This document shows, piece after piece, positions 26,497 to 63,900 of a DNA stretch of 64,000 bases. Position 1 is the stretch's first letter; the number at the start of each line of letters is the position of its first letter. Under the pieces are notes generated by a model, which had not been told where the DNA came from, ran no database searches, and was given only the letters and a program-made list of their open reading frames with translations. Source of the DNA: Serendipita indica DSM 11827 (lineage: Eukaryota > Basidiomycota > Agaricomycetes > Sebacinales > Serendipitaceae); contig CAJVGD010000014.1 in the NCBI GenBank assembly GCA_910890315.1, positions 620,001-684,000 of the forward strand, in the 5' to 3' direction. The position numbers and the translations under genes are program-made.

Positions 26497-26699
26497 ACAA
26501 CCACGACCCAAAAAAGCTCGACCAAGAGGTCGCAAACACTCTTTGTAGTTACCCAACACGCTCATTTTTGCACCACCATATCAAGGAAGCCAAATGGAGT
26601 GGATTCATAATAGAAGAGCTCTGCGGAGCCGTAAGAGGCGTGTGTGTGTGAAGTGGATCATTACGGGGGGTTCCAGTCGTTAGATGAAGGGCAAGGTCA

Positions 26700-27622
<923 letters not shown>

Positions 27623-27795
27623 TATTGGATTCCTGAGTGAGATAATACGACAATTGATGGAAAATCGAGGCAGAGACGCAGACGAGGGCGCACAGACTTG
27701 AGCGGCGAGAGGAATGGCACGGGGTCAAGTGTTGTTGGCGCTCAGCTTCTCCTGGTCCCGACGACAACCTGCGCTCAGCGCTGAGCGGCGCCGAA
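27623..27795. promoter_or_regulatory. 173-bp bidirectional promoter between YPT7 and ATG16
   Basis: Start codons of two genes acting in the same vacuole/autophagy route are 173 bp apart and point outwards. The interval contains gcgctcag, and ctcagcgctgag at about 27772-27784, a GC-rich inverted repeat (dyad) that might be a factor site. Function is inference. Confidence 0.45.
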
Positions 27796-28764
27796 ATGTC
27801 CTGGCAGGAAGTGCTCAGACAGCGATTAGTCGATAGGAATATCAGAGAAGCCTCTCATGGGCCCGTTATTGACCAGTGTACGTCGTTTTGTTAGAACGGC
27901 GTAGCGGAGATGCTGATTAGTTCCCAGACCGGAGATTAGCACAGCATACAAGACTTCTTAATGCCCGAAATCAGACGCTGCTCAGAGCAACAGGCGCAGC
28001 CAGGCCAAATCCCAATAGCTCGACGGTCATGGTTGGCGAAGAGTACGTCTGCATATCACAAAGGATCAGAAACTGACGTTGATATTGTTCAGCAACCCCG
28101 TGCGGACAGCATACATCCAATCTCTCGAATCGCAAGTCTCCGCGCTCCGAGATGAGATGGCCGCGAGCTATAAGACCCAGGGTCAAAACGCACAACGACT
28201 CCTCGCCATGAACGAGACACTCCGAGAGCGAGAGGACGCGGCCCGGATCGATGCGGAAAACTTGCGACTCGCGCGCGAGGAAGTCGCTGTCCTGCGACGC
28301 AAGGTCGAACAACACGCGGAGCAAATGGCTGAGAAGGATAGAGCATTCCAAGTGAGTAATTTGATACCTCTTCCGTCCCCGTTTATACCTCCCGTCAGGA
28401 CTTGACCGACGAGTACAACCTGCTCAACCTAGAATTTGGTCAAGTGGAAGAGCAAAAGGACAATTTGAAAAAGGACAATGCTACGCTCATCCAGCGGTGG
28501 ATCGACAAGCAAAACTCGATCGGAGACGTGCTCAACGAACGCAACGAAATGTGGTATGAGACGATGCAGACGCGACAGCAGTCACAGGATGGAGGAGGAA
28601 ACGGGATGAGGAGTAGACCGTCCCAGGAATCGCTCGCCTCGTCGTTTTCGCATGTGTCGGGAAACGGCAGTCGCCCGTTCCAGCCGCCCGTGGGACGGGA
28701 GCAGTACGATCGGAAGGGCGCAGATCCAGCAAAGGGGGGACTCCTTCTGAGTCCGAATGGCTAA
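27796..28764 (+). CDS. ATG16: Autophagy protein Atg16
   Basis: Four exons fit exactly: 27796-27877, 27928-28042, 28093-28351 and 28399-28764, total 822 bases, 273 residues. The first short exon reads MSWQEVLRQRLVDRNIREAS, the Atg5-binding N-terminal helix of Atg16. The rest is a long coiled coil (IQSLESQVSALRDEMAAS, LRREKV-type heptads) with the Atg16 signature YNLLNLEFGQVEEQKDNLKK and ATLIQRWIDKQN. The tail is Ser/Gly-rich and disordered, ending GGLLLSPNG. Like other fungal Atg16 it lacks WD40 repeats. It dimerises and places Atg12-Atg5 on the phagophore for Atg8 lipidation. The start exon is short and easily missed. Confidence 0.95.
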
Positions 28765-29011: not shown

Positions 29012-30023
29012 ATGTCTACCAAGCACGCAGAGACTGCCTCGTCATTAGCTGAAGAACACCACACCCAGCCCGGTAAAGGTGAGCTACATGCCAGCTCGGT
29101 ACGTTCAACTTGGATCAGAGCAGCAGAGTTGATGAACTTACAACTTGTCAAGGTGTCAACCAGCGGGCCTCCTTTATACAAAGAGCCCGTGCCAGCCTCT
29201 TCTACAGCTGGAATCAGTAGGTGGTTACCCAACTACGTCACCTAGCTGAAATACGTGCAGTATATGGCTTTGGAAGGCCAGTGATTCGTATGATGCCTTT
29301 ACCAATGCCACCGCCAATGGCAGATGTAATCCAACTCGACCCAGGATCGCCGCCTTTCTATATTGTAGCCCATGATTGGAGGCAGCTATGGAAGTTTATA
29401 TACATCCAAGCTGCAGTTCGCATCGAAACTTTGGCCGTTGATGAGGAAGATAAACTCCCAAAGGCGACTCTGCAAACTGTGTTACACTTTCTCGAGGTGA
29501 GTGTCCAAAACCAAAAAAAGCTTGTCGCTCATGAATCAAAGTTGCCTGATGGAAGTCGGCGTGTTGTGCTGTACATGGCCATTCGCAGCAGCAATACTCC
29601 TGATGAAAGTTTTTCGGTGGATACGTCTCTCGTTCCGCCCGACTTTCCGCACCCAGACCTTGGTCGACCGCTGTTACACACCAGGGAGACACAGGTGTAC
29701 ACCGTGCCCACCAGGCCATTCCCAATGATACCACTTCTCTTACCCAACTTTGCACTCTATCTCTCTGCCGCCTTTGACGAGTCTTGTCGCGCTCAAGACT
29801 CGAGAGCTCGCTTGAGGATGCTTGTTACAGGTGAATCTTCGCCAATAATGCCACCTGCACGATCCATGGAATCCGTTGGCTGGTTCCAAGGCTTGAAAGC
29901 CAGCCTACGACTCCGACGCAAGCCTGTGGTTAAAGAAGAGCAAGGATGTATATGTACGTCTACTCCATGCTATCCCTGGTTATCTGCTTACTGATACCTG
30001 CAGTGGTGACTCCATATGCCTAG
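29012..30023 (+). CDS. Unknown protein, short paralogue of the gene at 60.9-64.0 kb
   Basis: ATG at 29012 begins MSTKHAETASSLAEEHHTQP. The core after an intron at about 29218-29270 reads YGFGRPVIRMMPLPMPPPM, then SPPFYIVAHDWRQLWKFI, LQTVLHFLE, and after another intron LPDGSRRVVLYMAIRSS, PPDFPHPDLGRPLL, TQVYTVPTRPFPMIPLLLP and ESCRAQDSRARLRML. The last exon gives ILVTPYA with stop at 30023. The same landmarks occur in the C-terminal half of the 60.9-64.0 kb gene, with introns at the same codons and phases. No catalytic motif, signal peptide or membrane segment. The first intron (about 29070-29150) is not fully resolved. I do not recognise the domain; it is about 200 residues, rich in Pro turns, with a likely beta-sheet core. 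Confidence 0.75.
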
Positions 30024-37309: not shown

Positions 37310-40300
37310 ATGAGCGACTATGACGATTATTTTGACTCCATAGATGAACAGGCACTTGCTGAGCTCGACGTCGTCGAAGCAACACTCAACTCGTGCGAAA
37401 TAGCGCCACGCCCGCCAGTGAAAAGCGCGTCAAACAAACCACGAATATCGCAAGCAAGCATGGATTCAGAATTCGGTGACCTGACGCTCGATTTGGACGA
37501 CATGGACGCGCTTGAGGCTGCCGTGAGCAGGCCCAAAGCAGACTCCACCTCGCGACCTGGACAGTCGTTCAATCGAACGATCAGTGGAGCAAACGATGGT
37601 TGGGGTTTCCATACGGACTCAGGAGGATCGCTTCAAACGGATTTGCATGGCAACATCCTCATTTCTGAGGAGCTCGAGGAGCCAGCAAGGCAGCAACGGC
37701 CTCGTGTGCCTCTGCTCGGACAGAGGCTCCGGAAAACCAAAGTTTGGGATCAGACTGCATTTGCAAAGACAGGGTGGAGGAGTACAAAGCCTCCAAAAGG
37801 AAAAGGAAAGGCGCGAAACGATGATGGGGAAGAAGCAGAGGACGAGATAGATGCATCTGCTCTTCCAAGCGCTGATTTCTCCCGTGAGTATGGTCAACCC
37901 CGCTCAGATACACCTGATCCTTGGCACAGTGCGACCTGTTAGCGTCTATTGGTCTATGTGGAACATCGACTAATGCTGTATAGGCAACATCGATGCATCT
38001 CGAACCTGATAGAATCTCGATGAGAGAGTGGATCTATCCACTTAACAGAGACAAACGAGAATACCAATTCAACATCGTCAAGGCCTCCCTGTTCGATAAC
38101 TGCCTTGTCGCTATTCCAACAGGATTGGGGAAGACATTTATCGCTGGTTGTGTGATGCTTAACTGTGAGTTATGTCTGCACCCTTTACCGGTCTGACGCT
38201 AGTTCAGACTATCGTTGGTTTCCTGAAGGCAAAATTATCTTCGTTGCACCAACGAAGCCACTCGTAGCGCAACAGATCGAAGCCAGTCACGAAGTATGTG
38301 GAATTCCAGGTACAGATGCGATAGAACTTACGGGACAAACCCCACGCGACGTCCGACAAGTCTTGGTCCGTAATATCCGCACAAAGTCCCCCATTTCTTT
38401 CTAATATTTCACAGTGGAAAACAAAACGCGTCTTTTACATGACGCCTCAGACCCTTGTGAACGATTTGGCGAATCAACTCGTGGATCCAAAGCACATCAT
38501 CCTTCTCGTTGTCGACGAAGCGCACAAAGGAACCGGAGACTACGCCTATACGCAGATTGTGCGATTCATGATGGCCACTAATCCTTTCTTTCGGCTTCTC
38601 GCCCTCACAGCGACACCTGGAGGCAAGCCAGAAGCGGTACAAGTCATCGTCGATTCGATGCATATCAGCCACATTGAGATACGCAACGAAGAAAGTATGG
38701 ATGTTCGTCAGTATATGCATCACAAGGTCGGTTCTCGATCCTCACCTTGATCTGCCTCTCATTATGCACAGACTATCCGAGAGCATGTCGTCGTATTCGA
38801 TGGAGAGCTCCTCAAGATTCGAGAGCTGCTGCTGAAGGTCATGGATGTATGACCGGAACATGATTTTCCACCCCCTTCGCTGACCTTTTGGCAGCGGGTG
38901 CTTGGTCCGCTGCGGGCCAAGGGCATCCTATTTTATCACGACCCTGCTATGGTTAGCGCATTCGTTTGTCAAAGCGCCATGGGCAAATTGGACAACCGGA
39001 GCGAAGGGTGGGCCTACAAGCCTTTGAGTGACCTCGGAGCACTGGCACGTGCTTATGGCTATCTCGTAAGTAGAATATCGCAACAATTTTCGGTTCTGAC
39101 CGCATCTTAGATGGAACACAGCGTCGAGATGGCATATAACTCACTTCAAGATTTCGCCAATGGTGTCAAGAAGAGCAAGCCTGGTTCCAAGCAACAGAAC
39201 ACTAAGCCAAGCAAGGTGGCACAAGATCCAAATTTTGTTGCCTGTATCAACGAGATTGAACGTCAGCGCGACTTCAAGAAGGCATTTCCTACTCATCCAA
39301 AGATGGAGAAGCTGCGCACACTGGCCATTCAACATTTTGCAAATGCAGAGATTGTCGAAGAGGACAAAGTTCTACCTGGGGAGCAGCCAGCAAAATCAAG
39401 CACCAAAATGATTGTCTATTGCTCGTTCAGGGAGTGCGTTGACGAGATCACAGCCATGCTGAACGAGCAGCAACCCATGATACGAGCCCACCGGTTCATT
39501 GGTCAAGGAATAGATAAGCGGGGTGCCAAGGGAGTTTCACAAAAGGAACAATTGGCCGTGGGTCCTATAGCTGCTATTTCTCCAGTTCGCTGACGAATAA
39601 GCAGGTCATCAAAGACTTCTCGGCAGGCAAATACAATGTCATTGTGTCGACCTCAATTGGGGAAGAAGGTCTGGACATTGGAGAAGTCGAGTGCATCGTC
39701 TGTTATGACGCTCAGAAGACAGCTATTCGCTCTGTACGTATTTTGGCCATGAGTTACTATCATTCTGACCAGCTTCCAGCTGCAAAGAGCTGGGCGCACA
39801 GGCCGTAAAAAGGCTGGCGTTGTCGAGGTTCTCCTCACAAAAGGACGAGACGACAGGAACTGGGCTACAGCTACCGCCGCATACAAAGAGGTCCAACAAT
39901 CCATTGTACGCGGGACGGACTTGGAGCTGTATGGCGACGTCCCACGGTTGCTGCCTGACAACGTTGAGCCCAAATGCATTGAGATGAGGATGGAGTGCAT
40001 CCCATATGTCCGCGATGAGCCGAAGCGTCGAGGTTCCGGAAACACATCACGAAAATCATCTTCCAAAACGAATGCGACTAAACAACCTGGCTCGCGCAAG
40101 CGTGTGCGCGAAGAGATTCAAGAGGTTGAAGAAGAGCAGGAGGCAGAAGAGGACGACCCAAGCTCTCCAAAGAGAAAAAAGAAGTTTGTGGCGACAGATG
40201 ACGATGACGAAGAGTTACTCCAACCGAAAAGACGTACAAACAAGAAGGCTTTGGCATCGACCAAGCATAAAAACTCTGCACCTCGCTCTTCCGTCCCGAT

Positions 40301-41318
40301 GACCAGCTTTGTATCAGCGAGAATGCTGGCTCAAGAGGACGATGAAGACTCTGATAACGATGCACTGGACAAACTTGTCGCAAAACATACCCAAGGCGAC
40401 AGTATCAAACCCTCCAAACCCTCCAAGGCGCAAAAGAAAGCGATCCCCAAACAAATTCCAACTAAGCCAGCCGCGATGAACTGGCTGCTGGATTCAGACT
40501 CTGATGAAAGTGATCCGCCACCAAAACCACAACCCAGAAATACGGTGGCTGAACAGAATGTACCCATCGACCTGACAGAGACCGAAGAGTCTGATGTCGA
40601 ATTGATCGAGGAGGTGCAGATCTCGCCACCCAAATCCCGTCCAACTGTCTCAAACGTCAACCGTAGACTGGTCGCGAAGGATGTGAATACTTCATCTCCT
40701 GAAGCTTCTTTCCTACTCGAAAAGCCTGCGAAAAGAAGAGTTTTGCCGCCGCCGCCAGCAGACGATTCTCTGGAGCTTTCGTCCCCAGTCATCCGAAGAC
40801 TCAGGAGAAAGGGAGACGAAGGCGACAGGAGGCTCATGCCACCACCCCGTGCTCCTGGCGCAGCTACTGCTGATACAAACTCCAAGGCGCGTGGTTCGGG
40901 CGTAAAGTATTCAGTACTAGACAAAAACGAGTTCCTGGAGATGGAAGCACAACACTCTGGAGACGAAGTCGACGCAGGATCATCCGACTCGGATGGCATT
41001 GCGCATAGCTCTGATATCGAATGGCTAGTAGACACATCGGGAACACAGGCCCCATCTGGATACGAGCAGAGTGTGATTTACAGGCAAAGCCTCCTCACCC
41101 AGGCACCGAACAATGCAGCCCCAGTTTTTGCTTCGCGACCCGTCAAGACGGGTTTCCTGGGTAGAGGCCGCGCTTCTATCGGAGAGCCGAGGAGATACGG
41201 CGCCACGGGGTCATCACCAATGAGAAGCAGTGACATAGATAATTATTCTCTGGGCAGTTTCGTTGTAGAGGACGACGACCAGATACTCGAGGCCTCTAGT
41301 CAAGATGACGATTTATAA
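37310..41318 (+). CDS. MPH1: MPH1/FANCM-type DNA helicase
   Basis: ATG at 37310 opens an acidic N-terminus. Helicase motifs in order: [20 protein letters not shown] (Q-like), [11 protein letters not shown] (I), [12 protein letters not shown] (Ia), [14 protein letters not shown] (II, DEAH), LALTATPGG (III), [13 protein letters not shown] (IV), [14 protein letters not shown] (V) and [20 protein letters not shown] (VI). A helical insert between the lobes ([20 protein letters not shown]) marks the FANCM/Hef family. About nine introns lie in the first 2.6 kb; the last exon (about 39778-41318) is uninterrupted and encodes a 500-residue acidic, Ser-rich tail with basic patches and repeated DDD/E and SDSD runs that could be SUMO-interacting ([16 protein letters not shown]). 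Mph1/FANCM remodels stalled forks and D-loops and limits crossovers. Ends 31 bp from the ASNSD1-like stop. Confidence 0.95.
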
Positions 41319-41349: not shown

Positions 41350-43552
41350 CTAGGATAGTAATGTAGCGCCATTCGACCGTTTTGTGACATCTCCACCCTC
41401 TAGTCGAGCACTTCTACTGCCAAATTGCATTGCTCTTTTCGCTCTTGAAGCAGCACCATGTAGACCTAACCGCCTCGCGGCCAATCGAAGTAGTAGCTTG
41501 TCTCCTGGCAAGCCCTTTACCGCAAGTTGCTCATTGGCTTCGTCCTGAGGCGTCTGACTTGGAGGGATCACTCGGGGGTCGACTTTGAGGTGGATGGGAA
41601 TGGACGAGAGATATGCTAAAAGATTCATTGACAAGAAGGGGTATCTTGCTTCCTTTCCGTGTGAAGAGATGACCCTATCGTCCCTTCCAAGGTTTCGTAT
41701 ATGAATCCGATCGACGTCTCGTTGTAACTGAAGAAACAATGAGACTAAATTCGCTCCTTGAGCAAAGCCCTACCTCATCGAGTAATGCCTGCCACCCTCC
41801 ATGTTTATACGCATTTCGATGGCGTATGTATCCCCCGAGTAGTTCATCTGCACCGAGTCCACTGAGAATGACCCGTGCCGGTGAAGTGTACGATCTCACG
41901 GAACCGGTAGGAGAGTTCGGCGCCTCCGTGTCTCTGCTCTCGATGCAGCCTATTCCTCGAGAAGCGAAGTACAATGCTAGTGCCAGGGACATGTCCATTA
42001 CTGTTCGGGAAGGCGCCATTAGTCGCTCGATGATTGGCCTGTGACGAAGAGTTTCCTCATAAGGAATGTTGATGGTCACCTTTGGACAAATAAGATACCT
42101 ATTTCGCTGGTGAAATGCACTGACAAAGTTCCATGTTCTCTCCGGGGCAAGACGACGGAATTCTTCGACTTGTTCGAGACCCGTAATCCTGTCTGGCACA
42201 GAATACTTCTGCTCCTCCGAGAGGTGAGGTCGCGTTGACTGCTTATGAGGTTTCTTCTGTGAGGGCTGCGTGTGTCCTTCAGCACGATGCGGATTTTCGA
42301 AAGCAACGTTGAGGAGATCAATCGGTTCGGAGAGTGGTAGATGTCTGGAATGTATGAGTGACTCGTTATGACCAGACTCATACGAACCTGTGCGCAAGAA
42401 ATGCGATGACGGAGCAGTCTATGCCACCCGAGAAGAGCACGGCGACACGAGCATCTGAATTTTTGAGGCTGGAGAGAAATTTAGTCCTATGACTCTATAG
42501 ATGGGTCGCCTTGACCTGTTTAGGCGTGGAATGTCTTGAGTACGAAGCACAATAGACGCGTCTAGATGCTTGATAAACTCTTCTACAGTTTCTCCCCATA
42601 TTGGTGGTAAAGGGTCGACAGGTATTGGGTAATCTGCCGCGGGGAGATCTCGATGTAAAGGCTTTGGAGCAATCTTTTGGGAAATTAGCAGCAACTCGAG
42701 GGATACATCTGACGCACCAATTGTAGATATGCACTCTCTCTAGAAACATTCTGAATGTTCAAGCACTTCAACATTGTAAGCATGCGATATGCAACACACG
42801 GGTACGAACATGATCATCCAAAGAGACTGAAAACAGGGTGTCCGCGGGTAGCTCTTCAAAGTCGTGGCTACCATTAGACATGGAGGCGAGAGTGAGATAC
42901 GGCTTAGCAGGAGTGGGCCTGTGCACTACAAGTGACCGACGACCCAAAGGATCACGGCCAAAGTAGACTGTTCGACTGCTGCCCTACTCATTCTTTAGAT
43001 GTCTCCTGGTTATTTGAAAGTGACTACCTCCAAGTAGACAAAGGCGTACCTGCTCACAGATCAACTTTCACTTCCACGACGAGACCATCGACATACGGGC
43101 CCTCAACTTGTCCGAAAATGCCGGATATAGACTCGTTAGAGCTGCTCAGGCGTTCAAAAATCTTGACTCCATCATTGTCTGTAGAGATAAGATCCAATCC
43201 TTCGAAGATCTGTAAAAGGGGCTCAAAATCAGGAGTGTTTGCATGTAGATGAATATTCACCCACTTCTCCATTCCAGCAAAGAACGTTTCCACTAGAATG
43301 ATGAGGCTGAACCGCAATATGATCTCCCCGGAGATGCAGAACAGAGCTAAAGACGCTCAATGAAACTGATCCGATGGAGAGATGAAGGTCTTGTTGTGAA
43401 TCTGGGCCTATATAGCGCATTCAATAAATCAGAGAGTGGAAAGCAAAGCCTAGTTGTGCACCTCGCTGCGCATTGAGCTTGACAAGTTCGGTCCACTCTT
43501 CTTCATCAAAGCTTTGATCGGTTTGGCCTATTCTAAAAACGATTCCACACAT
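41350..43552 (-). CDS. ASNSD1-like asparagine-synthetase-domain protein
   Basis: The start at 43552 reads MCGIVFRIGQTDQSFDEEEW, with Cys2 as the class II glutamine-amidotransferase nucleophile. GPDSQQDLHLSIGSVSLSVF, LRGDHIAVQPHH and VLCWNGEVF complete the N-domain. The synthetase half has VAVLFSGGIDCSVIAFLAHR (PP-loop SGGxD, here Ile-Asp, about 42415), NIPYEET, SGLGADELLGGYIRHRNAY and DRVISSHGKEARYPFLS, and ends RSNGATLLS at 41350. About eight introns. Proteins of this type (ASNSD1 in animals, similar in fungi) are related to asparagine synthetase but their reaction is not established. Head-to-head with the PXA gene (50 bp) and tail-to-tail with MPH1 (31 bp). Confidence 0.92.
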
Positions 43553-43602
43553 TGCCGCAGAGTGGTAAGGCTCAAGGGCCGTGTCGGGATTTGAACCTGG
43601 CC
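43553..43602. promoter_or_regulatory. 50-bp gap between divergent ASNSD1-like and PXA-protein start codons
   Basis: Only 50 bases lie between the two outward ATGs, so the 5' UTRs probably overlap antisense or each promoter sits inside the other gene's first exon. A later in-frame ATG for the PXA gene is not obvious in the conserved N-terminus, which supports the short gap. Confidence 0.5.
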
Positions 43603-45307
43603 ATGTCGTCGCGGCGCAGTGTTGGCAGCCAAATCGTGTTCAACAACCCGAGAGCAATATCGGTACGCTCTGGAGGCTCAAAGACGAGCAACTCGACCAT
43701 CAATGTCACATTAGCACGGCGCCTGCTCTTCCCATACCTGCCACTGACGACCCCACTCCCCCCGCTCGTGGGTACATATGGAACACCCGAAGAAAACGAG
43801 AAAAGGAGGAACGACCCGGCTTTCAAGGCCCTCAACAACGAACTTTACGACTTCCTAGCTCTCGTGGTTCGCGGGTTCGTGCTGCCATGGTGGTCAAAGA
43901 TTACACCAAGAGACAAGGAATTTCCACAGGAAATCACAAGAATTGCCGCAAGTTTGATAAAGCAGGTGGAGTCACGGGCAATGGCCGCAGACATTCCTGC
44001 ATTGTTGGCGAATGCCATTCCTTTGCTGGTGGCACAACACTACCAGGACTTTCGTCTCGCACAAGCAAAGCTACCGACATCCTATGCCACTGGCCTACAG
44101 GGGCACTCTGACTCGCTCCCGCACCTTTTCCACTCATTCCAACCACACATGGCCGTCACAGCAGAAGGCACAGTGGATCCTAATTATCTCCGTCAAGTTG
44201 TGGAACACATTATGAAGGCCTGTCTACCGCCAGAGGACTGGGAGGCTGAAGCGGAGCGTGCTATAATTCGTGAGATTGTGCTCAAGATACTGCTGGAGAG
44301 CGCATTTCCACGCCTGAGCCAGCCATGGTTTATTCAAAAGACGATGCTCGAGCTGCTTGGTCCGCCCAAGGAGACAGTGCCAGTGAGTTTCATTCCTCAC
44401 TCGACGCTTACGCGTTGACATTCTTGCAGCCACCTCCTGTAACCAGAAGTGGGAGTGCATTTCATACCTTTGTCATCTTATTTCTTTCAGCGGTGCAAGT
44501 CGTCTCAGGATTTGCCATTGCCGCCATAGCAGGTCTGCAAGCTACCCTGCATACCGTCACGGAGGTGAATGCCTCTACGTTTCGTCAAAAAACAACATCG
44601 CAAACTGGCGAAGACATGGCATTTCCAACATTGGAAATGCTTGCAGAGATTTTGAACATGAGGGAACGAGCTGCAGCGGCCGCCATCCTTTACCTGTTGC
44701 AACTCATTCTCGGAGCTCTTGCCCCATTTGTCAATCGGTATGTGCGCAGGGTCTGTCACGAATAGGGAGTGATTGATTCGCTCTCATAGGCTGGTACCTT
44801 ACTTATTCTACACGCACACGCATCCCAGTATGTTTACGAAAATTCTCGCGCAGTCGAAGAAGGTGCTGTTCCCCGACGGATATCCAGGACCACCTCCAGT
44901 GGAGCCCACCATCGAAGAGCAAGTCCTCATACGCGAACAATTGGAAAAGCGACTATTTGATTGTGTTTTTCGTGCGTTTCTGCATAACCCGCTTCCGACG
45001 CCTGACGTTTCATCTAGCGGTTGCGGCCAAGCTTTTGTTCGGCACAAAGCTGTCCATTCAGGGCCGGACGATTCGAGGAATTTTGGATCCCTTGGGCTCC
45101 AAACAGTGCAATGTGCATCTTCTCATCTTTCTCCTAGACGCCATTGTCGTTAGCCTCTTCCCAGAACTGGCCTTGTCGCCCACCTCGAAGCGAGAACCGA
45201 GTGATGGTGCAACCGACGCGGACCTTGACGCAATGATTTATTCGCCTTACGACAAATCTGACCCACTTGATGGTCGCTCCAACTCGCCTGGTCAAGGCAC
45301 TCCGTAA
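43603..45307 (+). CDS. PXA-domain membrane-trafficking protein
   Basis: ATG at 43603 begins MSSRRSVGSQIVFNN. The PXA (PX-associated) domain spans about residues 45-265 with LPPLVGTYGTPEENEKRR, NNELYDFLALVVRGFVLPWW, PALLANAIPLLVAQHYQDF and REIVLKILLESAFPRLSQPW. After an intron at about 44383-44430 comes a hydrophobic stretch (FVILFLSAVQVVSGFAIAAI), then MRERAAAAAILYLLQLILGA, FAKILAQ-like MFTKILAQSKKVLFPDGYPG, and the end GTKLSIQGRTIRGILDPLGS and LLIFLLDAIVVSLFPELALS. The stop is at 45307. Unlike sorting nexins I see no PX or RGS domain. Fungal PXA-only proteins (S. pombe Pxa1-like) are little studied; PXA domains bind membranes in endosome and ER traffic. One intron inside 44955-45015 is inferred from LAVAAKLLFG. 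Confidence 0.85.
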
Positions 45308-46010: not shown

Positions 46011-48049
46011 ATGCCACTTGTGCATGCGCGCAACCACGGGACCAAACGTCGACAAGGCTCTCCTCAAGCCCTAGATAAACGACATGTATCCTTCCCTCGT
46101 GACTCGCCCAGCGACGACGCACTCGCCTCTCGGACTATGCTCCCAGGCGTCACCCCTGCCGCTGTCGGACATGACCAACTCGGTGAGTAGCATTTCCCTT
46201 TTTTTCTTGTCTGTGAGAGTTTTCTGGCTGTGAGGCTCCATGGGGTGCGAGTCGGTCGCAGACCATCTGAGCACACAGTCGCGGTGAGAACGCGGATGGA
46301 GTCGGCCCCTTCACTGCCCATCAGTGTTCATCAGCGTGTGCTTATTGGAGGGCTCGGCTTTTCGTAAACCGTATGACTCCCTTGCTGACCATTTGTTTAG
46401 CACTCGGCGCGGGAGTCGTAATCGTTTTGTTGCTCGCCTATATCTCGCGACGTCAGCTACGGAACCTCACGTCTCGCATTGCACGTGGGACGGCGACACT
46501 TTACCATATTACTACATCCACTCGCGAGACGAATTATTCCCGCCTCCCGTTGCATGAGCACGAAGAGGAACGCATAGAAAGTCCAACTAGTTCCATATCC
46601 AGTGTACAAATCAGCCGGCTGGACGATCCCGCACCACCTTATTCCCCGAATACACCCTTCAATCCACCAACGCGGACAGTTTCGTTGAACGAGGACACCT
46701 CGCTCTCAAGAAGTTATGTGAGACTACAAGCTCAAACACCGTCCGCTCCCTCTGTTCTCGCTGCCCGTTTGAATTCAACCCCCTCAATGCCATCAAACGT
46801 CGGAGCCCCGGAAAGCCATCCGAGCGGATGGGTTTCTCATCGCGGCTCACGCCCCCCGCCCATCAATACTGCCCCGTCATGCTCGCAAACTGTCGCACAA
46901 CCCGCCCAGCACTCTTCAGGATACCTCTTGCAAACTGAGTCGCCCTGCGCTACCCCTCCGCCGCAATACTCGAGTACGAACAATACGCCCGTGTCCTCGT
47001 CGAGCGGAAGCGGGACGCCGAGTATCAATCCGAGCGAGTTTAACCAGGGTGTGATTCCTGAATACAGCATCACGATTCACTCTAGCCCTCGCTCGTTTCA
47101 GTACATGTACGATGTGAGTGGACGGCCAATCGCAGTCCATGTTCCCGATATCGTACTCAGCCCGGTACCATGGCTGCCTCGGGCAGATACTGGTTCAAGT
47201 GACCGCAACAGGAAATGCAAGTATTACATTGGTGACGGCGCGCCTCCTGGCTACCTCGAAGTGCCCAGTCGAAAGAGGAGCAGTAGCCGAAGGAGACAGG
47301 AGAAGAAGGAAAAGCCACTTCCTGTGATACCACCAGCGGAGATTAAGCTTCGGTCAGAGGACGAGAATATCCATCGTCGAAATGCAAAACCTCGGCCCCA
47401 GTTCACCTCATCGTCGTCCCAGGAGGGTTCCTCGACGCGAAACATGACTGAACAGGGCACGACTCCAATGACCCGTTGCAGCTCGTTGCCCACGCGTCGC
47501 AAGCCTGTCATGGTGGACGAAGCGCCGCCGCCACTGCAGCGTACTCGGTCAGCCCCGAGTATGCCACCGCCCATGCCGGTCTTACCGCTCGACTTGGAAG
47601 CAGTGTATCCATCGGGAGGAAGCCGTCAAGCCGAACCCGAGCCATCTCCAGTTGAATTTGCATATGGGGACAAGAAACACCCCGTTGCGAGCAGCGAAGA
47701 AGACGAGGACATGCCATTGGCACAGAGTCTCCTGCTGGCGATGCGAAAGAAGACGGAAGAGCTGAAGCGTGTGGAAGAAGTCAAGACGAAGCAAGTGTCC
47801 AATGTGATCAAGATGCAGATCTTTGGACGATTGAGTGCATTGGCGTCACGAGCTCGCAAGGCTATCGAGCACGAGCTAGAGAGTGACGATGATGATGACG
47901 GTGAACAGGAAGAGAAAGAAGAGGAGAACCGATGGGAGGTTGCAGCGCTGCGGGAGAAGGAGGCGCATGAGCGAACGATGCACTCGCGGTTTGTGACCCG
48001 GGAACGAGAGGTTTCCGAGGCCTTTGTGATCGGAGATGAAGATGAGTAG
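46011..48049 (+). CDS. Single-pass membrane protein with proline-rich cytosolic tail
   Basis: Two exons fit exactly: 46011-46182 and 46401-48049, 1821 bases, 606 residues (donor GTGAGT at 46183, acceptor tttag at 46400, phase 1). Residues 1-57 are hydrophilic and basic (MPLVHARNHGTKRRQGSPQA). A single membrane helix ALGAGVVIVLLLAYISRRQ follows, with basic residues just after it, so the long C-terminus is probably cytosolic. That tail is Ser/Pro-rich with PPPY-like steps (DDPAPPYSPN, TPPPQYSS) that could recruit WW-domain ubiquitin ligases of the Rsp5 type, then a charged coiled-coil-like end with DDDDDGEQEEKEEE. Fungal arrestin-like adaptors share PY motifs but I see no arrestin fold. Function unknown. 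The first intron of 218 bases is long for this window. Confidence 0.75.
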
Positions 48050-52090: not shown

Positions 52091-52450
52091 TCATTTGATC
52101 TCAATTTCGTGAACGTAGCGTGTCTCCCTTTGGTTCTCTGTTTCCTCATATGCGACAAAGCCACACTTTTCGTAGACGCGCCGGGCTAGGACATTGTCTT
52201 TAACGACGTTGAGAAAGACTTTCTTGAACGGTTTCGCATCTCCGCCATAACTCTTTGCCCATTCGAGCGCCCGTGCGACGAATGCACGAGCGATGCCTTG
52301 GCACATCCCAACAATAAACGCGTCGTGGTGAGATCCAAACGACCGGAGACACGTGATCATTCCCTTGTATGCAGCGAATCGATCCTCGTGTGGCGTTGCG
52401 ATAATGAATTCTTCTGGACTCGTTCATTTTACCGTCTCCTGTATCGCCAT
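52091..52450 (-). pseudogene. Decayed tandem copy of GNAT acetyltransferase
   Basis: Minus-strand sequence matches residues from about 75 to the C-terminus of the intact gene at 52789-53391. It reads DRFAAYKGMITCLRSFGSHH, AFIVGM, then QGIARAFVARALEWAKSYGG and YEKCGFVAYEETE. The acetyl-CoA-binding stretch WVLPAARS of the intact copy is missing here (about seven codons deleted), and in the upstream part the homologous frame meets a TGA just before TSPEEF. The N-terminal third has no counterpart. It is therefore most likely a truncated, inactive duplicate, although the 89-codon 3' frame is still open. The homology fades at about 52450. Confidence 0.75.
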
Positions 52451-52788
52451 CGTACCTTCCTCCAAGCACAATGGGTCTGTGTTTGTCTGTAGCCAGGGTG
52501 CGTAGACCCAGAGGCTTTTATCATGGATCAGTTTGCCCTCGATTTATAGCGGCCTATCGTATGAATGACCTTGATACTGTAATTGCTGACAGATTGGCCC
52601 CAGACCTCCTCTATCATGCAGCACGTTACCCTCAGCCAGCCATGCCCGCCACCGGAAACTCTTTATTCACCTATAAATATTCACAGGAAAATGAAGCGTC
52701 AGTTCAGGGCACGATAAGAGGGCTTGGAAATAGATTGAAAGATTGGTAGAGGGTTTGGACGCAAGAACGCTTTGTATCCTGGCTCACC
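52451..52788. other. Spacer between GNAT pseudogene and intact copy
   Basis: 338 bases without homology to the GNAT genes and without a gene. It may hold what is left of the duplicate's upstream region. Confidence 0.4.
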
Positions 52789-53391
52789 TTATCGAATTTT
52801 GTAAACATAGCGTACCTCTTTTGCGTCCTCTGGACTCTCTCCTTGTACGACAAAACCACATCTTTCATAGGCACGCCTCGCCGGAACATTATTCTTTACA
52901 ACGTCGAGAAGAACCCTTTTGAATGGAATGTTATCTCCGTCATGACTTTTTGCCCACTCGAGTGCATGATTGACAAGCGTGCGACCAATACCTTGGCTGC
53001 GCGCTGCAGGTAGTACCCAAAAACCGACTACGAACGCGTCCTCGTAGGGAGATTCAAACGATCGAATGCATGTAATCATCCCTTTATACGCAGCGAATCG
53101 GTCGTCGTGTGTCGTTGGGAGGGCGAATTCATCTGGGGTCTTCCATTCCAGCGTCTCTCCTACTGCCTTCGTTTCGCCATCCAAGTTTATATCGGGTGGA
53201 GGAGAGTCGTATGCGATAAATGTTGCTGCTTCCGCGTTTTGCAGTCGGACCGTCCATGTATCAAGCGTAAAGGCAAGTTCGCGAGTGAATGTGCTGCTGA
53301 ATTCGTGTGGGGAGTCTACGAGTGCGCGAAGTCGGATGAGACGATAGAGAACAGCGTCTTGTGGCGTTAGACGGCGGAAGACGACCGTCAT
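52789..53391 (-). CDS. GNAT-family N-acetyltransferase
   Basis: An intronless 200-residue frame starting MTVVFRRLTPQDAVLYRLIR, typical of small GNAT enzymes that begin with a strand and helix binding the acceptor. The core has EFSSTFTRELAFTLDTW, FAAYKGMITCIRSFESPYED, then VVGFWVLPAARSQGIGRTLV, the V-x-P-x-x-R-x-x-G-I-G loop that binds the acetyl-CoA pyrophosphate (motif A), and LLDVVKNNVPARRAYERCGF (motif B). The end is VRYVYKIR. Acceptor unknown; relatives acetylate small amines or antibiotics, or protein N-termini. A decayed copy lies just downstream on the same strand. Its promoter is shared with or next to that of SUP35, 363 bp away. Confidence 0.9.
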   Translation of the reverse strand: MTVVFRRLTPQDAVLYRLIRLRALVDSPHEFSSTFTRELAFTLDTWTVRLQNAEAATFIAYDSPPPDINLDGETKAVGETLEWKTPDEFALPTTHDDRFAAYKGMITCIRSFESPYEDAFVVGFWVLPAARSQGIGRTLVNHALEWAKSHDGDNIPFKRVLLDVVKNNVPARRAYERCGFVVQGESPEDAKEVRYVYKIR

Positions 53392-53754
53392 GACAAGGTT
53401 AGAAGTGTTGAGGCGCCGAGGTGACTCTTAGATGTGACTGGAATGGGAGAACGCTGTCAAGCGATGTTGAAGCACTGCTAGACAGTTTATTACTGCCTAA
53501 AACGTATTATACAGTCAGCTCAGATCCGCAATAGGCCCAGTAGTCCCCAAGTTTCTGGGCCCACGATGACTTTACGGCGGGCTATAGGCAACCGGAACCG
53601 TAAAATGGTAGAATTTGGTACTGATGACTGTGGGTGAATATTATTCAGGAAACCTTTGTTCTCGGATTTAAATCCGGCAGTTCGACGTTGGCGGTCAGGA
53701 GCAAAAGTGGCGAAAACCACACAAACCTCAGCTTGGACCGCACCGTCACCAACG
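53392..53754. promoter_or_regulatory. Divergent region between GNAT gene and SUP35
   Basis: 363 bases between outward starts, carrying both promoters. No TATA-like element stands out on the SUP35 side. The in-frame extension of the SUP35 frame up to 53656 starts from a weak codon and is not needed. Confidence 0.4.
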
Positions 53755-60933: not shown

Positions 60934-63900
60934 TCAAGCGTAGTCTCCAAGACTAAATGGCGTAACTATACCGTTTGATTAGCGAGGTAGAGGAGGGGAG
61001 GAGAAGATACCAACCGAGATCGTATGTGTCATTGTTGACGCTCTTTCCAGCATTACTCGAGGATTTAGGCCTGAAGATTCTAGTGATGAACCCTTTTCTA
61101 TGACCGCCGGACGATGAGTCCACCATCCTGATCGGACCTCCCGGCAGTTCGTGGTCTTGGTGCACTGATCCATGCGAAGATGAGGCGCTTCCCATTGCTG
61201 ATCCGAATGGATTCCTTATGAGTGAAGTCGGTGTAGCCACCACGCTGGCCTGGACCAGTTTTTGTAGCCTGGCTCTGGAATCATTCGAGCGGGCGGATTC
61301 CGCAAGAGCAGCGTTGAGATATGGTGCCAAATGGGGTAAAGAGAGAGGCAAGACGGGTAATGGCTTTGTAGGAATTGAATAAATTTGTGTCTCTGGCAGA
61401 TTCTCCAATGGTCGACCAGGTTCAGGGGCCGGGAAAAGCCAAGGTACGACGGACGTATCCGTTATCGGGTAGTCTTCTGGAGGAGGGCTAATGCTCTGAA
61501 CTGCCATGTACAGAATAATCCGCCAGTCTCCGGTAGGCATCTGTAATGGTTGAGTATGTTGAAACAGCACGCTCCTATGAGAGACACACCTTTACAAAGT
61601 GGAGCACCAGTCGCAAATTTGGAGGGCCACGCTTCTCCCTCGCCAGTGCGGCGGGCGAAGGTTCGATACGAGTTGCGCTCTGTCCAGCAATAAACTTCAC
61701 TAGATTCTTCCAGGTGTGTGCTACGATGTAGAACGGTGGTGCTGGTTCCGGATTTAGAGTAATCACGTCTTCAATAGGAGTAGGCGCGGGCAGTGGCTGC
61801 TGCCGAATGACAGGTCTACCGAACCCATGCACTAAAGCCAGGTTAGTCAATCAATATTGTGTACAATAGAGCTTACATATTCCTGCGAGCGGGTCGGACG
61901 GGATTTGGATCCCGGGTGGATGAACGACCGGGGGGATATGCATAGGTGCAGATAATGGAACGGCGCTTGTAGAAGGACCTGCGCCCGGCGACGAGTCATG
62001 CTCGCCGATTGGACGTTCCATGGCGGTCGAAGTGCTGGGTCGGCTACCACTCGGAGAGGAAGTAAAGTGTCCTGAGCCAGATGGCGAATGTGAAGGTCCG
62101 GGCGGTGCTACTACGTGATGCTTGTTGGGAGCATATGATGTCCTGTTAGGATTACCGCCACCGACAGAATTCGATTGGCGTACGAGCTTGTTCGGGGTAC
62201 GCTGTGGACGACTTTGAGCGGGGTTTGGATGGACTGGGGGGTGGGCTATAGGAGGCTCTTCGTTCTGTGAAGGGAAGAAGTGATTGCGGTAGGGTTGACT
62301 TGGTCCAGCGTTTTGATTGCTGAGCTGAGGTGGCATCATTGCGTGGAAGGGAGGATGCTCTGGTTGTCCCATCATGGGATGATGAATTGGACTTTGGTTC
62401 ATAAGGTGGCTCATCGGTTGGTTCATCTGTCCTGGCACGTTTACGTGCATAGGCGGTCGTTGAACATGTTCGGGTGGTGGCGGATGGACCAGCGGGGGCG
62501 AGATAGCATGGACTGTGTTTGCGTGAGGACGCATTGGCGGTGGATGCGCTGCATGAACTGGTGCATGCACCGATTGTTGAGCGTGAATTGGTGGGTTGAG
62601 GTGATGTGGCGGCGGTGTTTGAGAGCTGATGGGATTTACAGCAACCGCTTGCGGGTCGTCATAAAGGGGAAGATCTCCGTTTACTCGTTGAGGCGTTTGA
62701 TGTGCACTGGTCGGTGGATTTGCATTGCCTGTAGTATTTGCAGATTCCTCTTGCATCTGGCGCGCCATGGCCGCGTCCTTTTCCTCGCGAATGCGCCGCG
62801 CCTCTTCTCGTTCAGCCTTTTCTTTCGCTTCCATAGCAGCGATCGCTGCTTTCGTTTCTTCCTCCAGTCGTTTTTCGCGCTCTTCCGCCGCTATTCTTTC
62901 CCTCTCTGCTTGCAACGACATTTCCGCAGCCAATCGTGCGTCCTCGAGTTCGCGCTGTAGACGTTTGTTCTGTTCGATTTCCTCTGCAAGCCACCTCGCG
63001 CGCTCTTCCTCAATCCTTTTACGTTCTTCTTCCTCCCATTTTGCTCGTCGGGCTCTTTCCTCTTCTGCCCAGCGCTCTCGGAGCTCGCGTTCCCGTCGTT
63101 CAGCCTCCTCCCGCGCCTGTGCTTCTATTCTCTCGCGTTCGATCCTTTCAGCTTCGAGGCGCCGATTCTCCTCCTCGCGCTTTTGTCGTTCAATTTCGAC
63201 TTGCTGACGTTCAAGCTCTTCTCGTTGCATTCTGAGTCGTTCTTTTTCCAACCGGATTTCTTCGAACATTTTCCTCTCTTCCTCTTGGCGCATATATCCC
63301 TGTCGCTGGAGATCGAAGGCTGTGGTAGGATGCGGATACATCGTGCCGTTGAGGTTCATTTGAGAGAGCGGCCGTTGGAGTGCATGTTCCACGTATAACC
63401 CTTGATTTGGATTCTGACCAAGGGTAGCTGGCGGGGTCACCGCCTGCCCCACTCGAGGCGGCAAAGGAGGAGGTGGTGGCGGCACAGGAAAGGGGCTAGA
63501 TTCGCCTGTGACAAGTCCTTGAGCAGATAATGGTCTCTGAAAGGCGTCTGGGTGGGGTGGTCTTGCTGGCACGGGGGGCTTGGGCGAGCCATCGGAATGA
63601 TGGTTCAGCAACGGAGGCGGTGGATGGAAAACTGGGGGCGCGTTTGAAGGAATAGGAGGCAATCTATGGTAGTAATCTGACACAAATTCAGCAAGAGCTC
63701 CGGCATGACGGGGTCGGTGACATACTTGATGATTCTCCCTGTACAGGTGGATTTGGCTGGCGCATGCCTTGTGAAGCCTTTCTGTTACCTGCAAGGACCC
63801 TGATTCAAGACTCGATCGTAGCTAGTTGCTGGCCCTTGGCAAGAGGGCGGGTCCAAGATAAAAGCACAGCGCTAACCACATCGAGAACAACAATCTCAAA

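Follow-up and report, generated by a model that had tools for sequence, protein, structure and literature searches.

Two predicted protein-coding genes on opposite strands of the 64-kb stretch of DNA analysed here (the window) share one domain. The short gene lies on the plus strand at 29012-30023, an interval that runs exactly from the start codon to the stop codon of the rebuilt model. Its five exons, predicted from sequence (29012-29098, 29153-29216, 29261-29496, 29542-29953 and 30004-30023), encode 272 aa and are separated by introns at 29099-29152, 29217-29260, 29497-29541 and 29954-30003. The long gene (60934..63765), whose strand the initial annotation did not give, reads on the minus strand from 63765 to 60934, and its likewise predicted model of five exons (63765-63726, 63676-61877, 61831-61590, 61540-61015 and 60965-60934) encodes 879 aa, with introns at 63725-63677, 61876-61832, 61589-61541 and 61014-60966. 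Intron lengths range from 44 to 54 nt, and all 8 introns of the two genes have GT-AG borders. An in-frame stop lies ahead of the long-gene start codon, provided that no 5′ exon is spliced on.

Splicing of the short gene could vary without loss of the frame. The first intron, 29099-29152, is optional in that the frame stays open when it is left unspliced; an alternative form, 29079-29152, was dropped because it breaks the frame that 29099-29152 preserves. The third intron, 29497-29541, is 45 nt long, open and in frame, and its retention in the mRNA would add 15 residues to an otherwise unbroken protein.

The short gene is almost domain-only. In the long protein the order is a Pro-rich N-terminus, a charged stretch of ~189 residues, a Pro/His-rich linker and then the shared domain, which is ~183 residues in length. 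As delimited by BLASTP of each copy to the other, the domain occupies residues 42-224 of the short protein (29189..29826, plus strand) and residues 605-790 of the long one (61253..61904, minus strand), with introns inside both spans. In a single BLASTP comparison, the spliced short product matched the C-terminal 287 residues of the long protein at 163 bits and E = 2e-53, with 97 of 186 columns identical (52%) and 132 of 186 positive. Aligned locally, the two spliced proteins scored 500; in 200 shuffles of the long protein, taken from residue 601, scores averaged 39.7 and did not exceed 60. The initial annotation had drawn attention to the blocks GFGRPVIR, PPFYIVAH, LHF(L/V), (V/I)(V/I)LYMA, PTKP or PTRP, and DSRARL; all 6 are found in both genes in identical order, and the two regions align well past them. 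The closing VTP in the final short exon is likewise found in both. The tails that follow the domain could not be aligned above chance, as 220 of 1000 shuffles matched the whole-tail score and 875 of 1000 matched it once the last residues were left off. No third copy was detected in the window by tblastn with both proteins, the next best match having E = 3.5. Judged by their sequences, the short and long genes are a genuine old paralogue pair sharing one domain.

Intron positions bear on how the pair arose. Introns had been described as falling at the same codons and phases in both genes, and this holds in full at two positions. The intron before GFGRPVIR is in phase 1 at an identical aligned codon, following A-G-I, and the intron after LHF is in phase 0, again at an identical aligned codon (LHFLE^ in the short gene, LHFVK^ in the long gene). 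For the last intron the phase agrees (phase 1 in both) but the codon is one off relative to VTP, since in the short gene the intron interrupts the L codon of LVTP, and in the long gene the codon of V itself. The VTP match is weak by itself; because the phase is common to both genes and the last exon is tiny, it is plausibly a relic of common descent. The introns common to both genes suggest copying at the DNA level, in support of the gene duplication proposed earlier, and speak against a retrocopy origin for the part of the gene that carries them.

The domain had been put forward as possibly belonging to an undescribed fungal family, and neither copy reached a Pfam-A cut-off. The short protein matched 0 families up to E = 10, and for the C-terminal 287 residues of the long protein the sole match was Gag_p19, at E = 0.16 and 12.9 bits (cut-off 22). 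The 647-residue open frame at 63821-61881, which covers the long protein's N-terminal region, had no Pfam-A match. There was also no domain match in NCBIfam (E up to 10) or in PHROGs and PADLOC (E up to 1). Sequence searches of the PDB gave best values of E = 0.29 for the short domain and 1.1 for the long domain, neither of them significant, and a profile built from the two domain sequences found no PDB match up to E = 10. Scans of GTDB genomes returned 37 and 20 pattern matches, one of which was confirmed: a stretch in Parahaliea maris (48% identity, with an E of 5e-5 that is relative to the candidate stretches only). It was rejected because it spans only 31 residues and its frame lies antisense to two longer bacterial open frames. 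Successive scans of viral contigs gave 56, 48 and 23 pattern matches, none of which was confirmed as a relative. With the long domain as query, plasmids yielded two Azospirillum pieces (E = 1 and 4) that were judged to be chance, and phages yielded nothing up to E = 1. No credible relative thus emerged from the prokaryote, viral, plasmid and phage collections. "Undescribed" thus means absent from Pfam-A and the libraries searched, in which the eukaryote sequences covered are PDB chains only.

A literature search by domain peptide motifs, the letters YDLVTPF included, returned no paper, and none of the matches listed for functionally uncharacterised fungal and mushroom families names the domain. 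Some predicted proteins from mushroom-forming fungi may carry a similar, YDLVTPF-like ending, which serves as a lead only. Fungal genomes contain many conserved families of unknown function, and at present the domain adds one more to them, from a single stretch of one genome. If it proves widespread in fungi, it would represent a missing family entry together with a ready long/short pair. By description it can be likened to the taxon-restricted families of unknown function in mushroom-forming fungi, a recognised kind that includes Snowball (PMC10949477), in that it lacks a Pfam match and comes from an apparently fungal genome.

The domain might belong, as a diverged member, to a family or fold already known and escape profiles made from two sequences; this is a substantial possibility, if somewhat short of probable. 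A two-sequence profile has little power, and AlphaFold lacked a usable alignment to work with; set against this are the silence of Pfam-A on the short protein, the sub-cut-off Gag_p19 match as the only one for the long domain, and PDB sequence matches that go no lower than E = 0.29. The AlphaFold models were built from an alignment of three rows representing two genes and reached mean pLDDT values of 33.5 and 41.7, which gave no usable fold. Both are below useful confidence, and the secondary structure that they have in common is therefore a hint only: strands at FYIVA and RRVVLYM with a short one at QVY, and helices that begin at WRQLW, span LQTVLHFLE and cover the last part. A hairpin present in both models was set aside because its first strand is coded by the in-frame intron 29497-29541.

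The direction of change between the two forms was considered next to the homology at the domain's N-terminal edge. The domain-only form could be ancestral, with the long gene produced by fusion to a Pro-rich, charged-helix protein, an order of events that we regard as possible but doubtful. A domain-only gene does exist, and a junction could fall near intron 61832-61876. Against a fusion, homology extends upstream of the common phase-1 intron (VPASSTAGI / IPSDPLAGI). Residues 1-50 of the short protein, a segment that takes in the domain's A-G-I, align with long residues 563-613 at a score matched by 13 of 1000 shuffles, and short residues 1-47 align with the long linker (residues 343-610) at a score matched by 44 of 1000. 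The comparison of the short-gene N-terminus with the long linker thus leans towards N-terminal loss, and does so weakly because the sequence compared is of low complexity.

Codon comparisons suggest that the pair is old and has been kept as protein. Over 183 aligned codons of the short and long copies, 38.8%, 26.8% and 64.5% of first, second and third positions differ, respectively. The same codon is used at 38 of the 97 identical residues, compared with 31.5 expected under independent choice, and at fourfold sites of identical residues (n=57) 65% differ, compared with 74% expected at saturation. On a longer alignment the Nei-Gojobori dN was 0.46 and dS was not computable. Silent sites are near-randomised while second codon positions are conserved, which indicates that the protein sequence has been held. 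These divergence figures sum both branches, and for that reason do not prove constraint on each copy individually.

Could the short gene be a partial copy of the long one that is decaying or no longer functions, its frame kept by chance? It does lack a counterpart to the first two thirds of the long protein, and its tail does not align with that of the long copy. Its five exons, on the other hand, are all open over 272 codons, its introns have GT-AG borders, and silent sites are near saturation, whereas a neutral copy of that age should show stops and frameshifts. The third-position excess is not assignable to the short branch alone, and with that reservation we consider decay improbable. It is hardly credible that the long model joins two genes, one Pro-rich with a charged helix and the other a second short-type domain gene, since, even though the join rests on sequence-predicted splicing, the open frame of the 1800-nt exon 63676-61877 continues into residues whose homologues in the short gene precede its intron, and intron 61876-61832 has the elements GTAAGC, CTAAC and TTTAG.

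The N-terminal part of the long copy had been described as Pro-rich and coiled-coil. The first of these terms is borne out by residues 1-136 (63309..63765, minus strand, one intron within), which are 26% Pro. The second is not, as the region that follows has the charge pattern of a single helix. It is a Glu/Arg-rich stretch without Pro or Gly (residues 141-329; 62730..63296, minus strand), predicted to form a single α-helix. E, K and R make up 60% of residues 142-300 and 68% of residues 142-240, with Arg at 19% and Lys at 5% over residues 137-342. In residues 137-325 there are 59 pairs of opposite charge at spacing i,i+4, where shuffles average 32.5 (sd 4.2) and 0 of 2000 reached 59; like-charge pairs at the same spacing number 6, compared with 32.2 in shuffles. 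Opposite charges at i,i+3 number 41, compared with 32.6 in shuffles. The single-helix assignment was made through E+K+R content and these charge-pair counts rather than a published SAH score.

The coiled-coil question was judged from heptad and periodicity counts rather than with a dedicated predictor. A coarse hydrophobic scan of 12 period values had its maximum power at 3.4 and not at 3.5. In a finer scan, power at 3.5 was below average, and between 108 and 419 of 500 shuffles had peaks as high as the highest in the range 3.2-4.0 (at 3.42 or 3.74, depending on the residue set). The best of the 7 registers of a classical heptad placed ILVMF at 22% of a/d positions, compared with 14% overall. 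The best 28-residue window had 62.5% ILVMF at heptad a/d, a value equalled by 62 of 200 shuffles. A short coiled coil inside the charged stretch is compatible with these counts; the ~189-residue stretch as a whole looks more like a single α-helix than a coiled coil.

Stable single α-helices are described in PMC5812594 as rigid links joining domains, with E+K+R contents of up to 80%, and PMC5347031 describes SAH helices as rich in Arg, Glu and Lys and stabilised by salt bridges. The long protein resembles SAH (ER/K) linker proteins, which include some myosins and drebrin, in having a Glu/Arg-rich segment with opposite charges at i,i+4 placed between other regions, and in a hydrophobic period that does not rise above shuffles. 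It differs from them in that the libraries searched yielded no relative of its C-terminal domain, in that Arg exceeds Lys, and in that the single-helix state here is read from the charge pattern alone. A search of PDB sequences with the charged stretch found no match up to E = 0.001.

Short motifs were counted in the proline-rich parts. Residues 1-136 of the long protein carry PPVPAR, PPPPPP and PPLPPR. Two PxxPx[RK] motifs are present, compared with a shuffle expectation of 0.44, and among the six motif types counted neither SH3 class I nor PPxY occurs in this segment. The short protein has one PPxY (PPLY) in its first 50 residues, where shuffling predicts 0.01. A few proline motifs within a stretch that is 26% Pro are weak evidence for real partners. 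Pro-rich adaptors and scaffolds are known to recruit SH3, WW or profilin partners. The long protein is like this class in that its N-terminus bears a poly-Pro run as well as PxxPx[RK] motifs, and unlike it in that its motifs are few and its N-terminal part has no Pfam match.

From this layout we propose, as a best guess held at low confidence, a tethering protein with a domain-only paralogue; the binding role, the partners and the competition are all conjecture. The shared domain would be a folded binding module, and in the long protein it would form the anchoring end of a tether. An α-helix rises 0.15 nm per residue, so that the charged stretch, if it is a single helix throughout, would make a rod of ~28 nm (189 residues x 0.15 nm). 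At the far end, the N-terminal PPVPAR and PPPPPPLPPR could recruit partners of the SH3, WW or profilin type. The short protein, having neither the rod nor the long Pro-rich end, might occupy the same docking site with different recruitment, and so act as a competitor or as a separately used subunit. Its PPLY motif makes a partner of its own possible, which speaks against a pure competitor. PMC4183817 is cited on the supporting side of the tether reading. The more elaborate version, in which a new fungal fold comes in two forms, a ~28-nm rod tether and a competing domain-only paralogue, as a built-in on/off pair, we consider very improbable. The gene anatomy is firm; the function of the domain is a guess.

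The surroundings of the two genes were compared by matching all open frames of 90 codons or more in the window (242 in number) against one another. This recovered the short/long pair and a tandem acetyltransferase pair; no other gene links the two loci, and context consequently gives no functional hint. Short introns and gene content suggest that the window is fungal. Upstream of the short gene lies an ATG16 homologue on the plus strand, with its stop codon at 28762-28764, and downstream lies 6-phosphogluconate dehydrogenase. The long gene is convergent with an Urb2/Npa2 homologue on the opposite strand. Within 26552-28761, a Ras-family GTPase gene on the minus strand adjoins the ATG16 homologue, the two pointing apart. 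None of these neighbours has a visible connection with the domain.

Elsewhere in the window, 52094-53427 on the minus strand holds tandem GNAT acetyltransferase-like open frames with 57% identity over 115 residues and 54% over 130, according to the direction of comparison, which by this similarity are a local duplication. Two plus-strand open frames at 39753-41315 (521 aa) and 46271-48046 (592 aa) have no Pfam match up to E 0.001. They flank a PXA-domain open frame at 43537-44415, and the frame at 46271-48046 may be part of the PXA gene.
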